The translations under genes were made by a program, and so were the position numbers. This document shows, piece by piece, positions 13,273-17,309 of a stretch of DNA of 64,000 nucleotides (positions within the stretch are counted from its first letter, which is position 1; each line of letters begins with the position of its first letter). Source of the DNA: an uncultured bacterium (GTDB lineage Bacteria; Bacillota_I; Bacilli_A; RFN20; CAG-826); assembly GCA_949291375.1 (NCBI GenBank), contig CASEVI010000001.1, positions 194,980 through 258,979 of the forward strand, read 5' to 3'. The notes below the pieces were generated by a model. That model had not been told where the DNA came from. It searched no databases and saw nothing but the letters and a program-made list of their open reading frames with translations.

Positions 13273-13301
13273 ATTATACTCAAACCGTATGAATTCGTCA
13301 A
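13273..13301 (-). promoter_or_regulatory. Sigma-70-type promoter of the DUF4143 ATPase gene
   Basis: On the minus strand TTGACG (13296-13301) and TATAAT (13273-13278) are 17 bases apart. The -10 lies 24 bases before the ATG at 13248. The -35 is inside the first copy of a 29-base direct repeat. Confidence 0.7.
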
Positions 13302-13357
13302 TTTTAACCGTACAAATTTTTAAATTATAACCGTATGAATTCTCAAATTTTAACCGT
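13283..13357. repeat. Two 29-base direct repeats, candidate operator
   Basis: Copies at 13283-13311 and 13329-13357 both begin AACCGTATGAATTC and end TTTTAACCGT, with only small differences in the middle; the period is 46 bases. The first covers the -35 box of the ATPase promoter, which suggests binding of a regulator. Confidence 0.6.
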
Positions 13358-13587
13358 TTATTTTTTAAAAATGAACTTTAAGTGAATTTAGAAACATTCT
13401 TTTATCATTTTGAAATTCGATAAACTTTTAACAATTCTTTTGGTGATTGCAGTTTTAGCACAACCGTTAGGACGAGAAATTAAAACAATAGTAAAAGTTT
13501 AAGTTTTTAATAATTTATCACTGATTTTCACTTAATATTTCATTTTGCTAATAGAAAAATATTTATCTTTCACTATCAATAACTTTT

Positions 13588-13610
13588 AGACACTTTTGTG
13601 GTGTTTTATA
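13588..13610 (+). repeat. Single copy of the 23-base AGACACTTTTGTG element
   Basis: Begins AGACACTTTTGTG and ends TTTTATAA. It matches the three tandem units at 14320-14388 and lies just upstream of the candidate sigma-factor promoter at 13617. Confidence 0.6.
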
Positions 13611-13616
13611 AACTCT

Positions 13617-13649
13617 TTGCACCAAAATTAGTATTTAATCATCTTAATA
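13617..13649 (+). promoter_or_regulatory. Candidate ECF-type promoter of the small lipoprotein gene
   Basis: TTGCACCAAAATT (13617-13629), 12 bases, TCTTAATA (13642-13649). The identical arrangement precedes the sigma factor gene and a near copy precedes the serpin gene. The ATG at 13669 lies 19 bases after the second box. Confidence 0.5.
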
Positions 13650-13668
13650 GTTAGTTGGAGGAAGCTTT

Positions 13669-14142
13669 ATGAATATAAAAAAGACAATAATATTATTTCT
13701 AACACCACTTTTCTTATTAACAAGTTGTGGACCTAATCCCGAACATTATGATAAAGTTATTTTATCTGGTAAAATCCCTGGTATAGGTGAATTAAATGAA
13801 ATTACATTAGGTAAAGAACTTCAAAATAGAGTTGAAAAACTGTATCGCGATTGTAGAAGAAATATTCATAAGAAAAATATTTCTTTATATGCTGGCAATT
13901 TAACGCAATATTTTTTCGTATCTTTAAAGTCTGAAATTATCGATAATAGTATTTCTATTGGAATTGATAAAGAATTAAAAGTAGATATAATTAGGTGGAG
14001 TGTCTGTCCGAATAAATTATCATTTGGAACACCATATCAATTAAGTGGAGATATTCCGAAAGATATTTTTGCTCAAGCTGTTTATTTAGTTGATGCTTTT
14101 TTAAGTTTATATAATTTAACAATCGATGATTTATCATTTTGA
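13669..14142 (+). CDS. Small lipoprotein of unknown function
   Basis: 157 aa, preceded by GGAGGAAG. Lipobox LLTSC, Cys20. The mature part mixes charged and hydrophobic residues with several Cys and ends in a hydrophobic helix-like stretch (AVYLVDAFLSLYNL). I do not recognise a family. It ends in TGA, which supports the standard code. Its upstream region shares the signature of the sigma factor gene, so it may be part of that regulon. Confidence 0.7.
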   Translation: MNIKKTIILFLTPLFLLTSCGPNPEHYDKVILSGKIPGIGELNEITLGKELQNRVEKLYRDCRRNIHKKNISLYAGNLTQYFFVSLKSEIIDNSISIGIDKELKVDIIRWSVCPNKLSFGTPYQLSGDIPKDIFAQAVYLVDAFLSLYNLTIDDLSF

Positions 14143-14262
14143 GAACAAATAATTGAGATTTTATTTATAATAATGGAATTAAATTAATAAAAATCATTGA
14201 TTCAAGAAAAGTTGTTAAAGAAATTTAATTAATTCGCTACATTTTTTCTTACTAAAAATTAA

Positions 14263-14289
14263 AAAATACGATAACAGTCGTATTTTTTT
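14263..14289 (+). terminator. Rho-independent terminator
   Basis: Stem AAAATACGA / TCGTATTTT with loop TAACAG and a run of T. It can end the lipoprotein transcript 120 bases after its stop. Confidence 0.75.
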
Positions 14290-14319
14290 GTTTTTTGATG
14301 TAAAACATAATTTATTTTT

Positions 14320-14388
14320 AGACACTTTTGTGCTATTTTTCTAGACGCTTTTGTAGTAATTTATTAAACACTTTTGTGATATTTTATA
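14320..14388 (+). repeat. Three tandem copies of a 23-base element
   Basis: Units start at 14320, 14343 and 14366, exactly 23 bases apart: AGACACTTTTGTGCTATTTT, AGACGCTTTTGTAGTAATTT and AAACACTTTTGTGATATTTT, each plus 3 bases. On the opposite strand each unit carries (A/C/T)CACAAAAGTG or a close variant, similar to the CACCAAAA part of the nearby promoter signature. This suggests repeated regulator binding upstream of the sigma factor gene. Confidence 0.7.
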
Positions 14389-14491
14389 AAACTACCGAAG
14401 TAATAAAACGATATTAATCAAATTAATAATCATAAATCACATCATAGTCCATTTTATTTTTTATATAAATTAGATAAATTAAATAAAATAA

Positions 14492-14524
14492 TTGCACCAA
14501 AATTTCTTTTTTCTTCTCTTAATA
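14492..14524 (+). promoter_or_regulatory. Candidate autoregulatory ECF-type promoter of the sigma factor gene
   Basis: TTGCACCAAAATT (14492-14504), 12 bases, TCTTAATA (14517-14524); the ATG at 14542 is 17 bases on. The match to the copy at 13617 is exact in both boxes and in spacing, while the sequence between them differs. Confidence 0.5.
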
Positions 14525-14541
14525 AGTGTAAAAATATTTTT

Positions 14542-15111
14542 ATGGAATTAGAAAAAAGAGTTGAGCTAGCACTCGTTTCTAAAAATGAAACTTTGATATC
14601 TTCTTTATTTAATGAAATTTATGAGAAATATTACCGATTAGTTTTATTTATTGTTTCGAATGAATTAAAAAGTAAAGATGATATATTCGATATTACTCAA
14701 GATAGTTTTATCATTCTTTTTAACGAACTTTTAAAAGAAAATAAGAAAATTAATAATCTTAAATACTATTTATTAACTATTGTTAAAAATAAAATTATCG
14801 AATTTAAAAAAGAAGAAAATAAAAGAGTTGATATTGAAGATGTTATTTCTTTAAAAGAAATAAATGAAAAAGAAAAAGATGATTATTCTAAAAATGAATA
14901 TAAAATGGATGAATATTTGTCTATTTTAAATGAAACTGAATTAGATATTATTATTAAACATATCTATTTAGATCAAACATTTAAAGAAATAGTAATAAAT
15001 TCTAACAATAAATATTCTTCGATAAATACTATTAAAAGTATTTATCGAAGAAGTTTAGAAAAGTTAAAAAAAGAAATTAACAAAAAAAGGAAACAAAAAG
15101 GAAGTATATGA
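14542..15111 (+). CDS. Sigma-70 family (ECF-like) RNA polymerase sigma factor
   Basis: 189 aa. Region 2 is visible at about residues 25-75 (IFDITQDSFIILFNELL, the counterpart of the DxxQexFl helix) and a region 4 helix-turn-helix at about 130-180 (TFKEIVI... then NTIKSIYRRSLEKLKKEI). Small size and absence of regions 1 and 3 fit the ECF group. The stop overlaps the next gene in ATGA, so translation of a membrane partner is coupled. No Shine-Dalgarno site is evident. Shared upstream sequences suggest it controls itself, the preceding lipoprotein and the serpin (inference). Confidence 0.75.
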   Translation: MELEKRVELALVSKNETLISSLFNEIYEKYYRLVLFIVSNELKSKDDIFDITQDSFIILFNELLKENKKINNLKYYLLTIVKNKIIEFKKEENKRVDIEDVISLKEINEKEKDDYSKNEYKMDEYLSILNETELDIIIKHIYLDQTFKEIVINSNNKYSSINTIKSIYRRSLEKLKKEINKKRKQKGSI

Positions 15112-15959
15112 AAATGATAAATAAAAAAATTGAAAAAGAATTAGAAACAAGCATAAATAACACTATTTCTAATAATAGCAACTTTTTTAACGAAGAAAAA
15201 TTAAATGAAATGAAAACTAATGTTTTTTCTTCACTTGATTTTTCTACTTTAAAAGAAAAAGAAAAATCAAAAAAGAAAAAACATGTCTTTATTTTTAATA
15301 AAAAATTATTTTTACAAATTAGTGTTACTTCCTTAGTTTGCTTAATTTTTATTGGTATTTTATCTTTACCTTTTGCTTTAAATGTTAGTGCTGGAAATAA
15401 TACTCCAGGAGATAAAAACCCTTCTGGAGAAGATGGAAGTCAAGGAATTGATGGAGAAGTAAGCGAAAGTATAAAAATATTTAATAATGAAGAAACATTT
15501 AAAAAAGAATTAGATATAGAAAAAGAAAAATATGATTTTTTATCTAATTATTATGTTTTTGATATACCTTCTTCATTATTAGATAAAAACAATTTAAATA
15601 TTACAAATTATTATATTATTTCTAATGATAGAATAAATGAAGGAATGATCTTTATTAAATTTAATATAGATAATAATGATAATTTAGAATTTATTTTACT
15701 TTTTGAAGAATATTCTTCAAAAAGTAGTAGTTTAACTAATTTAATATATGAAGATAATAAAAATAATTATTTTTATGATGTAAGTAGATTATTTAATGAT
15801 GAATATAATACTCTTTTATATTCTAGTTTAATTGATAAAGAAAATAATAATGAAAAATATACATTTATATATGATTCTTCTTTAATAAATGATGAATCAT
15901 TACTTTCTTTTAAAGAAGAATTAAAAGAATACTTCTATAATTTAGAAAATAATGATTAA
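15108..15959 (+). CDS. Single-pass membrane protein, candidate anti-sigma factor
   Basis: 283 aa. It overlaps the sigma gene by 4 bases (ATGA); a second ATG at 15114 is an alternative start. The N-terminal 67 residues are charged and cytoplasmic, one helix lies at about 68-92, then a Gly/Asp/Pro linker (GDKNPSGEDGSQGIDGE) and an external domain of about 165 residues rich in Asn, Ser and Tyr. No canonical zinc anti-sigma motif is visible. The topology plus coupling to a sigma factor gene is the basis for the call; the outer domain would be the sensor. Confidence 0.6.
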   Translation: MKMINKKIEKELETSINNTISNNSNFFNEEKLNEMKTNVFSSLDFSTLKEKEKSKKKKHVFIFNKKLFLQISVTSLVCLIFIGILSLPFALNVSAGNNTPGDKNPSGEDGSQGIDGEVSESIKIFNNEETFKKELDIEKEKYDFLSNYYVFDIPSSLLDKNNLNITNYYIISNDRINEGMIFIKFNIDNNDNLEFILLFEEYSSKSSSLTNLIYEDNKNNYFYDVSRLFNDEYNTLLYSSLIDKENNNEKYTFIYDSSLINDESLLSFKEELKEYFYNLENND

Positions 15960-15974
15960 AACCTAATATTTTTA

Positions 15975-15988
15975 TTTTCACGTGGAAA
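15975..15988. promoter_or_regulatory. CACGTG-centred palindromic element
   Basis: TTTTCACGTGGAAA lies 16 bases after the anti-sigma candidate and upstream of the serpin. A near-identical element with similar flanks is at 48551-48564. Confidence 0.4.
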
Positions 15989-16000
15989 TAATTTATATAT

Positions 16001-16034
16001 TTTCACCAAAAAATAATTAAACATAATCTTATTT
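16001..16034 (+). promoter_or_regulatory. Candidate ECF-type promoter of the serpin gene
   Basis: TTTCACCAAAAAA (16001-16013), 13 bases, TCTTATTT (16027-16034). It resembles the two exact copies at 13617 and 14492 but is weaker: the spacer is one base longer and the second box diverges. Confidence 0.3.
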
Positions 16035-16079
16035 AATATAAATAAAAAAACTTTTTAATAAAGAACGGAGAAAACTAGT

Positions 16080-17309
16080 ATGAAAAAACTTTTTAAATTA
16101 ATGAGTTTAACTTTATTAACCGCTTTGATTTCTTCTTGTAACCTTTTTAAACCATATGAAGTAATTTATGAAACAAAAATGAGAAATTATAAAAGTAATG
16201 AAATAAATTATGATGATTTTATTTCCCTTTCTTTAATTAATTTTTCTTCTTTACTTTATGAAGATTCGTCTATTGCTTTAAAAGGTAAAGAAAGTAAAGA
16301 AAAAAATATTTTATTTTCGCCTTTTTCTTCATTTTTAAATTTTTTAACTATAGAAGTTACTTCAAGCGATGAAATTTTAAAATCTTATAATATTAATAAA
16401 GAAAATGGTGAAGAGATGTTTAAAAATCTTAATAAATTTAAAAATGTTAATTTTTCAAATAATGAAAATAGTGTTTTTAAATTTACAAACCTAATTGCAG
16501 GATTAAATATCGGCTTTGATAAAAATTCTTTAAAAAAATATAGTAAAGATTTTTCTTTTTCTTCATATTTTGCTAAAGATAAAGAAAGTTTAGAAGAAGC
16601 TATAAGTGATAAATTAAGCACTGATTTAGAAACTAAAATAAATTATGAATATAAACTTAATTATGATTCTTCTTTAAATTATGTTTCCGGATTAAAAATT
16701 AAAGAAAAGAGAGAGTTTTCTACTACAAGACATGTTTTTAAAGATATAAATGGAAATGGAAATGAAACAAGATTTGGTGTTATTCCTACAAAATATCATA
16801 TTGATAAAGTAAATGAAGTTTTAAGTTTTAAAGGTGAAACAACTAATTTTGATATGATTTTTGTTATAAATTCAAATGAAGATAAAACAATCGATGATCT
16901 TCCTTTAGAAGAATATTTTTCTAATTATCGAAGAACATATTCTCTTTATACTGATGAAAATGGAAATTCTAAAAATATCAATATTGCTTTCCCATTTTTT
17001 ACCTACACTTCATCAAATTCAATTTCTAATTATGAAGAAGTAGCAAAATCAAGAGAAATATATGGAAGCTATGTAGGAAATAAAGTAACTGAAGGATCAA
17101 TTTCTTATACTCTTGAAGGATTTTTACAAGATAATTATTTTGAAATAAATGAAGATGGTTTTGAAGGAGTAAGCATTTCAACTGGTGGAGCTCCTGGTGC
17201 AGGAGCTCCAGATTTACCTGATATTTATTTAGATAAACCATTTTATTTATTTATAACTTTAAAAAATGATATTCCTATTTTTGCAATGAGAGTAAATACA
17301 TTAAATTAA
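16080..17309 (+). CDS. Serpin-family lipoprotein
   Basis: 409 aa surface lipoprotein (ISSC, Cys20), start preceded by CGGAG. Serpin landmarks occur in order: NILFSPFSSFLNFLTI (helix B, SPxS), FPFFTYTSSNSISNYEEV (the PxFx...L segment), the hinge NEDGFEGVSIS, and the closing strand DKPFYLFITLKNDIPIFAMRV. Glu358 to Pro387 (start of PF) is 29 residues, against 27 in alpha-1-antitrypsin, so the reactive loop is full length. The loop is Gly/Ala/Pro-rich (TGGAPGAGAPDLPD). The hinge residue P14 is Phe361 where inhibitory serpins have a small residue, and the Ala-rich P12-P9 stretch is absent, so inhibition is uncertain. It follows the sigma/anti-sigma pair in the same direction. Confidence 0.82.
   Translation: MKKLFKLMSLTLLTALISSCNLFKPYEVIYETKMRNYKSNEINYDDFISLSLINFSSLLYEDSSIALKGKESKEKNILFSPFSSFLNFLTIEVTSSDEILKSYNINKENGEEMFKNLNKFKNVNFSNNENSVFKFTNLIAGLNIGFDKNSLKKYSKDFSFSSYFAKDKESLEEAISDKLSTDLETKINYEYKLNYDSSLNYVSGLKIKEKREFSTTRHVFKDINGNGNETRFGVIPTKYHIDKVNEVLSFKGETTNFDMIFVINSNEDKTIDDLPLEEYFSNYRRTYSLYTDENGNSKNINIAFPFFTYTSSNSISNYEEVAKSREIYGSYVGNKVTEGSISYTLEGFLQDNYFEINEDGFEGVSISTGGAPGAGAPDLPDIYLDKPFYLFITLKNDIPIFAMRVNTLN

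Follow-up and report, generated by a model that had tools for sequence, protein, structure and literature searches.

Introduction

In the SigV/RsiV system of Bacillus subtilis and its relatives (PMC4183432, PMC5014341), the gene of an extracytoplasmic function (ECF) sigma factor lies behind an autoregulatory promoter and is followed by that of an anti-sigma factor with one transmembrane (TM) helix; RsiV combines the roles of anti-sigma factor, receptor and inhibitor of lysozyme in one protein (PMC5014341). A locus of like layout, with an ECF sigma gene, a one-TM anti-sigma candidate and a predicted autoregulatory promoter, lies in a 64,000-nucleotide stretch of DNA from an uncultured gut bacterium (GTDB lineage Bacillota_I; Bacilli_A; RFN20; CAG-826; assembly GCA_949291375.1, contig CASEVI010000001.1, positions 194,980 to 258,979), which we call the window; here a gene for a lipoprotein of the serpin family follows. 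In related genomes the protein encoded directly behind the sigma gene itself carries a serpin as its extracellular part, and this fused form would, like RsiV, unite the sensor and the inhibitor of an attacking enzyme. Unlike SigV/RsiV, the systems described here have no RsiV-type domain that we could find, their candidate ligand is a protease, the sensor of the fused form is a serpin and the serpins of the window type are separate lipoproteins.

The RsgI-type anti-sigma factors of cellulolytic Clostridia resemble these proteins in having one TM helix, a short cytoplasmic part and an exchangeable extracellular module, encoded beside the sigma gene, that may be a carbohydrate-binding module (CBM), a glycoside hydrolase (GH) domain, Fn3 or other (PMC12484212, PMC3413522). 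They work with sigma factors of the SigI family rather than of this ECF group, their sensors bind carbohydrates, and no serpin sensor is among those described in the accessible portions of these two reports. The serpin of Bifidobacterium breve is protease-induced via an adjacent two-component system (reported in PMC8012564); it shares with the window the step from an extracellular protease cue, which in our case is conjectural, to a serpin response, and differs in that histidine kinase and response regulator take the place of sigma and anti-sigma factor and in that no fused sensor-inhibitor is described. Other bacterial serpins, including the gut siropins (PMC5127057), miropin and tengpin (structures 5ncs, 2pee), have the serpin fold in secreted proteins as well; unlike those of the window they are stand-alone inhibitors for which sigma-factor control is not described in the sources found. 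Full-text literature, mostly open-access and exclusive of preprints, yielded no description of a tie between serpins and anti-sigma or ECF sigma factors, and the window locus is a previously undescribed variant of the ECF sigma/anti-sigma theme.

A first-pass annotation of the window, made from its letters alone, had proposed that a promoter signature shared by lipoprotein, sigma factor and serpin genes marks an ECF-type regulon deploying a surface serpin. From the follow-up reported here we conclude that the locus probably comprises an autoregulated ECF sigma factor, a membrane anti-sigma factor and a surface serpin, which together would run a small regulon whose products are surface lipoproteins, at least two of them serpins; the likeliest mode of action is a cycle of protease-triggered release.

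A promoter family that follows the sigma factor

The motif TTGCACCAAAATT-N12-TCTTAATA occurs in exact copies at 13617-13649 and 14492-14524 of the forward strand, before the genes of a lipoprotein and of the sigma factor, and nowhere else in the source genome (G000; 1.29 Mb in 12 contigs, from an uncultured lineage). This bears out the exact, equally spaced pair of the first-pass annotation, which had also placed it about 50 bases before the start codons; that distance holds when counted from the start of the -35 box, and the ends of the copies stand 19 and 17 bases 5' of the ATGs at 13669 and 14542. The spacers of the two copies differ in sequence, which agrees with the earlier view that simple duplication did not produce them; the copies lie 875 bases apart. 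Searching the window with up to three mismatches returned the same two sites alone, where 0.04 were expected by chance and no shuffle gave two. The weaker copy announced before the serpin gene is present as described, at 16001-16034 of the forward strand, where TTTCACCAAAAAA (10 of 13 positions) and TCTTATTT (6 of 8) flank a spacer of 13 bases, one longer than in the exact copies. In the close relative G021 the same position holds TTGCACCAAA, an equally long spacer and TCTTATTT, with an intact -35 box, and in G003 both boxes are decayed (TTGTACC, TCTAATT).

The genome scan and the comparison of relatives that had been proposed as checks extend the family. With three mismatches allowed, the source genome contains four more sites, which share the form TTGCACCAAAA...TCTTATTA, and a reversed control gives no site; further sites of the scan precede a second serpin gene, genes of other lipoproteins and that of a 36-amino-acid membrane peptide. 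Across 26 genomes of the genus, CACCAAA-N13..17-TCTTAWT was found 27 times in the six genomes that have an ortholog of the sigma factor and 12 times in the 20 that lack one, against 3.6 sites expected in six genomes at the latter rate (p ~3e-15 by a Poisson test that assumes independent sites, three of the six genomes being close kin). Placement differs as sharply: 26 of the 27 sites in sigma-bearing genomes are intergenic, the other lying antisense within a gene of G002 (L123), whereas 10 of the 12 sites in the remaining genomes fall inside genes, at a coverage by open reading frames (ORFs) of 91% in the window. Random or intragenic occurrence, named beforehand as evidence against a promoter, is thus confined largely to genomes without the sigma factor. 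One of the two intergenic sites there stands in G005, 21 bases 5' of a gene resembling the serpin-like lipoprotein genes of G002 and G023; since this genome is just 74% complete, a sigma gene may lie on a contig that is absent from it.

Wherever in the genus an ortholog of the sigma factor was found, the motif precedes its gene, in G021 (99% identity) and G003 (94%) as well as in G002 and G023 (both 54%) and G015 (47%). CACCAAA and TCTT..T are invariant in an alignment of 20 sites, and the relaxed motif reads TGCACCAAAA-N14/15-TCTTATTW. It has the geometry expected of an ECF promoter, with a -35 element and A-tract (TTGCACC followed by the tract in the copy at 13617-13649), about 18 bases, an AT-rich -10 box (TCTTAATA in that copy) and a short leader, and we identify it as an ECF-type promoter. 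The site at 14492-14524, kept 5' of all five orthologs, supports autoregulation of the sigma factor through a promoter common to its predicted targets, as had been suspected from what ECF sigma factors commonly do.

Members of the regulon and a link without synteny

The motif-bearing set of the source genome and its two close relatives includes the sigma/anti-sigma operon, the adjoining serpin gene, the gene of a 157-residue lipoprotein and that of a 189-residue lipoprotein. The 157-residue protein (13669-14142, forward strand; lipobox LTSC) is served by the first exact copy, has no Pfam match and belongs to no family that we recognize. A paralog of the 189-residue lipoprotein also lies under the motif (G000:C1:288459-291491; L069:960-1570), its gene interrupted by an in-frame TAA in the source genome and intact in G003 (L120), as does the 36-residue membrane peptide encoded behind EF-Tu, whose -10 box is off consensus in the source genome. 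The second serpin lipoprotein (L070; G000:C1:305321, minus strand; 439 residues) is a full serpin, recognized by the Pfam Serpin profile at 118 bits.

The other carriers of the sigma factor separate what synteny joins in the window. G002 and G023 have no serpin gene beside the sigma gene, and in both the motif stands before the gene of a divergent serpin lipoprotein at another locus; two tandem serpin genes (140 and 136 bits) follow it on another contig of G015. Because these serpins lie under the motif away from the sigma gene, sigma factor and serpin stay linked without synteny, which on sequence grounds is stronger evidence than a promoter shared within one genome. The surface serpin foreseen in the regulon is thereby joined by a second one and by those of other species of the genus, and we regard a regulon joining this sigma factor to serpins as well supported by these comparisons.

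Conserved sites in G002 (L082:740-860) and G023 (L086:951-1080) have no ORF behind them. Each is followed by a stretch of about 100 nucleotides with a hairpin that presents CUCCU (anti-Shine-Dalgarno) in its loop region and a second, strong hairpin resembling a terminator; the fold z-scores are -5.9 and -9.3. The element has no Rfam match and is absent from the 24 other genomes of the genus, and is a candidate small RNA of the regulon.

Serpins fused to the membrane partner in relatives

The most surprising part of the analysis came from comparing sigma-factor matches with serpin matches across 96 relatives and reading the loci where both occurred. Some 20 related genomes, not all of them from the order of the window, have immediately behind an ECF sigma gene an ORF that encodes a short cytoplasmic segment, one TM helix and a serpin ectodomain. 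The ORF starts at an overlap with the sigma stop codon or at most 37 bases from it; the N-terminus consists of about 45 mostly basic residues, the TM helix (hydropathy 2.0-3.1) starts at residue 36-57, and the serpin domain is complete, at 110-168 bits (Pfam) in the main type and 35-49 bits in a divergent type. Among the loci read, serpins with an internal TM helix stand behind a sigma gene in 24 of 24 cases (one gene being read from two loci) and those with a lipoprotein signal or other N-terminus in 0 of 53; a few of the counted loci came via the sigma search, and those from serpin searches alone split likewise. The family of the window and further families of its order contain fusions, as does one family from a second order in the class (L180, L181, L183); none lay outside the class among the matches listed at E<=1e-20 in a draw of 392 genomes from the phylum, where all matches listed came from the class.

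An AlphaFold model of one fusion has a TM helix at residues 41-63, a serpin body and a disordered reactive loop (predicted template modeling score 0.71, mean predicted local distance difference test, pLDDT, 65), and its best Foldseek matches are native serpins, including the bacterial tengpin and miropin. One fusion also has a weak match to Sigma_reg_N (E=0.011, under the Pfam cut-off). We read the fusions, on their position and architecture, as putative serpin-bearing anti-sigma factors.

Several loci bridge the split and the fused form. The fused-type sigma gene of G079, whose product is 41% identical to the sigma factor of the window, has nearly the same promoter (TTGCACCAAAA...TCTTATA); before other sigma genes of the fused type the boxes in this position are variants such as CGACRAAA...GTCTTATT. 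The -10 stretch TTGTATTATTAA is common to the sigma gene of the fused type in G064 and to a stand-alone gene for a serpin lipoprotein in that genome. G063, which belongs to another family of the order, repeats the gene order of the window, with sigma factor, one-TM protein with Gly-rich stalk and serpin lipoprotein. A tree of the sigma factors (in which row L024 repeats the locus L138 and is wrongly entered as lacking a serpin) requires at least four changes of the fused label on supported branches, so swaps of the ectodomain seem to have recurred, and the tree is compatible with either form, split or fused, as the older one.

The sigma factor and its putative partner

The sigma factor (14542-15111, forward strand; 189 residues) fits the ECF (sigma-70 group 4) pattern of region 2 and region 4, little else and a length below about 200 residues. 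Pfam Sigma70_r2 scores 31.8 bits (cut-off 24) and region 4 alone is weak; the best NCBIfam matches are all sigma-70/ECF models, below their cut-offs, with TIGR02937 matching over the whole length at 37.9 bits against a cut-off of 42.9. These matches, together with an alignment of the five orthologs, uphold the ECF identity assigned at first sight.

The next gene (15108-15959, forward strand) overlaps the sigma stop codon by four bases, is syntenic in five genomes and encodes a protein of 283 residues. From hydropathy and the basic N-terminal part, its topology is predicted as a basic cytoplasmic part of about 65 residues, one TM helix at about residues 67-91 (15306-15380), a Gly/Pro-rich stalk at about residues 95-122 (15390-15473) and an extracellular domain. 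No Pfam family matches it over cut-off (an ortholog, L085, has a weak DUF4179 match, E=0.009); the RsiV lysozyme-binding domain of Pfam has no match in this protein or its orthologs, and RsgI_N has none in these or in the serpin fusions. Profiles of window-type and fused-type partners resemble each other over 17 N-terminal residues alone. On position and topology, both of which agree with the suggestion of the first-pass annotation, we call it a putative anti-sigma factor. By eye, the one-TM proteins encoded behind the related sigma genes L009 (G086) and L018 (G089) have other ectodomains, von Willebrand A-like in the former and beta-propeller-like in the latter; such variety suggests a modular sensor family.

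The serpin of the window

The lipoprotein encoded at 16080-17309 of the forward strand (409 residues, lipobox ISSC) matches the Pfam Serpin profile over positions 16-367 of 370 at E=2.4e-4 and 20.9 bits, below the curated cut-off of 27. The divergent group to which it belongs (window, G003, G002, G023) aligns with full serpins over 382 columns in hhalign (E=5e-14) and with the fused serpins at E=7e-10 and 2e-8, and in a set of 20 serpins its top profile match is the ectodomain of a fused protein. On these profile alignments we class it as a serpin, with a predicted full-length fold and a reactive-center loop near the C-terminus. The region of this loop spans about residues 358-385 (17151-17234) with the bait GGAPGAGAPDLP, and the bait loops of these serpins are longer than that of alpha-1-antitrypsin.

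Other features of the window and its surroundings

Degenerate direct repeats with 23-base spacing occur near the gene of the 157-residue lipoprotein, one family (ACCGTATGAATTC..., three copies) at 13274-13365 and a second (TTAGACACTTTTGTG...) at 13586-13612, with one copy 5' of the lipoprotein gene, and at 14318-14390, with three copies 5' of the sigma gene; both could be operators or remains of mobile elements. G003 lacks the lipoprotein gene at this position, and G021 has it at another place (contig C4), in one intact and one decayed copy, between which a secreted protein of 325 residues is encoded (L080:1134-2111) that by eye resembles a papain/C39-like cysteine peptidase. Just past the right end of the window, at G000:C1:260360-260797 (L124), is a second ECF sigma gene with a one-TM partner of 384 residues that has no serpin; ECF genes related to this one are common across the genus.

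Discussion

We infer anti-sigma function, a protease as the signal, cleavage at site 1 and site 2 and inhibitory activity of the serpins, and the cycle that joins them would run as follows. At rest, the anti-sigma factor would tether the sigma factor to the membrane. Proteolysis outside the cell, whether by host digestive or inflammatory proteases or by the enzymes of competitors, would attack the anti-sigma ectodomain, most easily at the Gly/Pro-rich stalk, and the remnant would then be cut by the M50 site-2 protease of the cell, freeing the sigma factor to transcribe its own operon and the lipoprotein serpins. These would trap the protease at the cell surface, and the signal would end. In the fused form sensor and inhibitor would be one protein, and a protease taking the serpin bait could itself be the trigger. 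The proposed steps have precedents in RsiV, which senses lysozyme as well as inhibiting it (PMC5014341), and in the protease-induced serpin of B. breve (PMC8012564). We give even chances to the wider proposal of an anti-sigma class with a serpin as extracellular sensor, in which bait cleavage or trapping would bring about the stressed-to-relaxed change, release of the sigma factor and production of more surface serpins, the three-gene locus of the window being the split form.

Several points weigh against this account. Although an M50 site-2 protease is found in the source genome, its presence says little because such proteases are near universal. The extracellular domain of the 283-residue protein has no recognizable fold, and an AlphaFold model of the window serpin, built on a thin alignment with distant fusions, is uninformative (pLDDT 34). 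The hinge of inhibitory serpins follows the consensus ExGTEAAAA at P17-P9 (PMC8233489), from which the serpins here depart (NEDGFEGVSIS in the window, NKKGIEGAAVT in the second serpin, mostly DEDGTTIKSIS in the fusions): the P15 glycine is kept, T at P14 is found just in most fusions, and F or I takes its place in the window and second serpins, so that inhibition is not assured. Resemblance between stalk and bait, considered as a sign of a common protease, reaches p=0.015 in 2 of 6 pairs and stays at the level of composition in the others, and we treat it as no more than a lead.

The regulon may be real and answer to a signal other than a protease, such as a cell-wall antibiotic, lysozyme or an antimicrobial peptide, with serpins among several products for general surface protection. 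This would suit the small lipoproteins and the 36-residue peptide, which are not protease-related, the ectodomain of the window partner, which is not a serpin, and the sibling ECF systems of the order (L009, L013, L017, L018), which have unrelated ectodomains behind the sigma gene. We think it unlikely, however, since among the products under the motif serpins alone recur in all lineages that carry this sigma factor and the partner protein is itself a serpin in other genomes. Very unlikely, in our judgment, is a motif that is the site of another regulator, a repressor or an activator, or a sigma-A promoter with an unusual -35 box, the sigma gene being a mere target. Binding of the sigma factor to the motif is a prediction and the AT-rich TCTTATTW is somewhat sigma-A-like, but the sites track the ortholog across the genus and stand 5' of orthologs down to 47% identity, sigma genes of the fused type show variants of the boxes in the corresponding position, and promoter geometry, short distances to start codons and the lack of evident dyad symmetry point the same way. 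An origin of the pair by chance or by local duplication of AT-rich sequence, which the 875 bases between the exact copies and the other short direct repeats of these intergenic regions might suggest, is extremely improbable given sites at unlinked loci in six genomes and chance controls near zero, and duplication as the source of the pair is ruled out by those unlinked sites together with the differing spacers.

The protease-release cycle is the reading that we prefer. With serpins linked to a defined regulator and promoter, the question is open to direct experiment. Should the fused form act as we propose, the serpin fold, familiar as a one-shot inhibitor, would double as a one-shot receptor reporting a caught protease, and would offer a ready-made, exchangeable protease sensor for reporter strains. 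In relatives of this bacterium the putative sensor half is a serpin, which may be a hitherto undescribed means for a cell to detect proteases attacking it.

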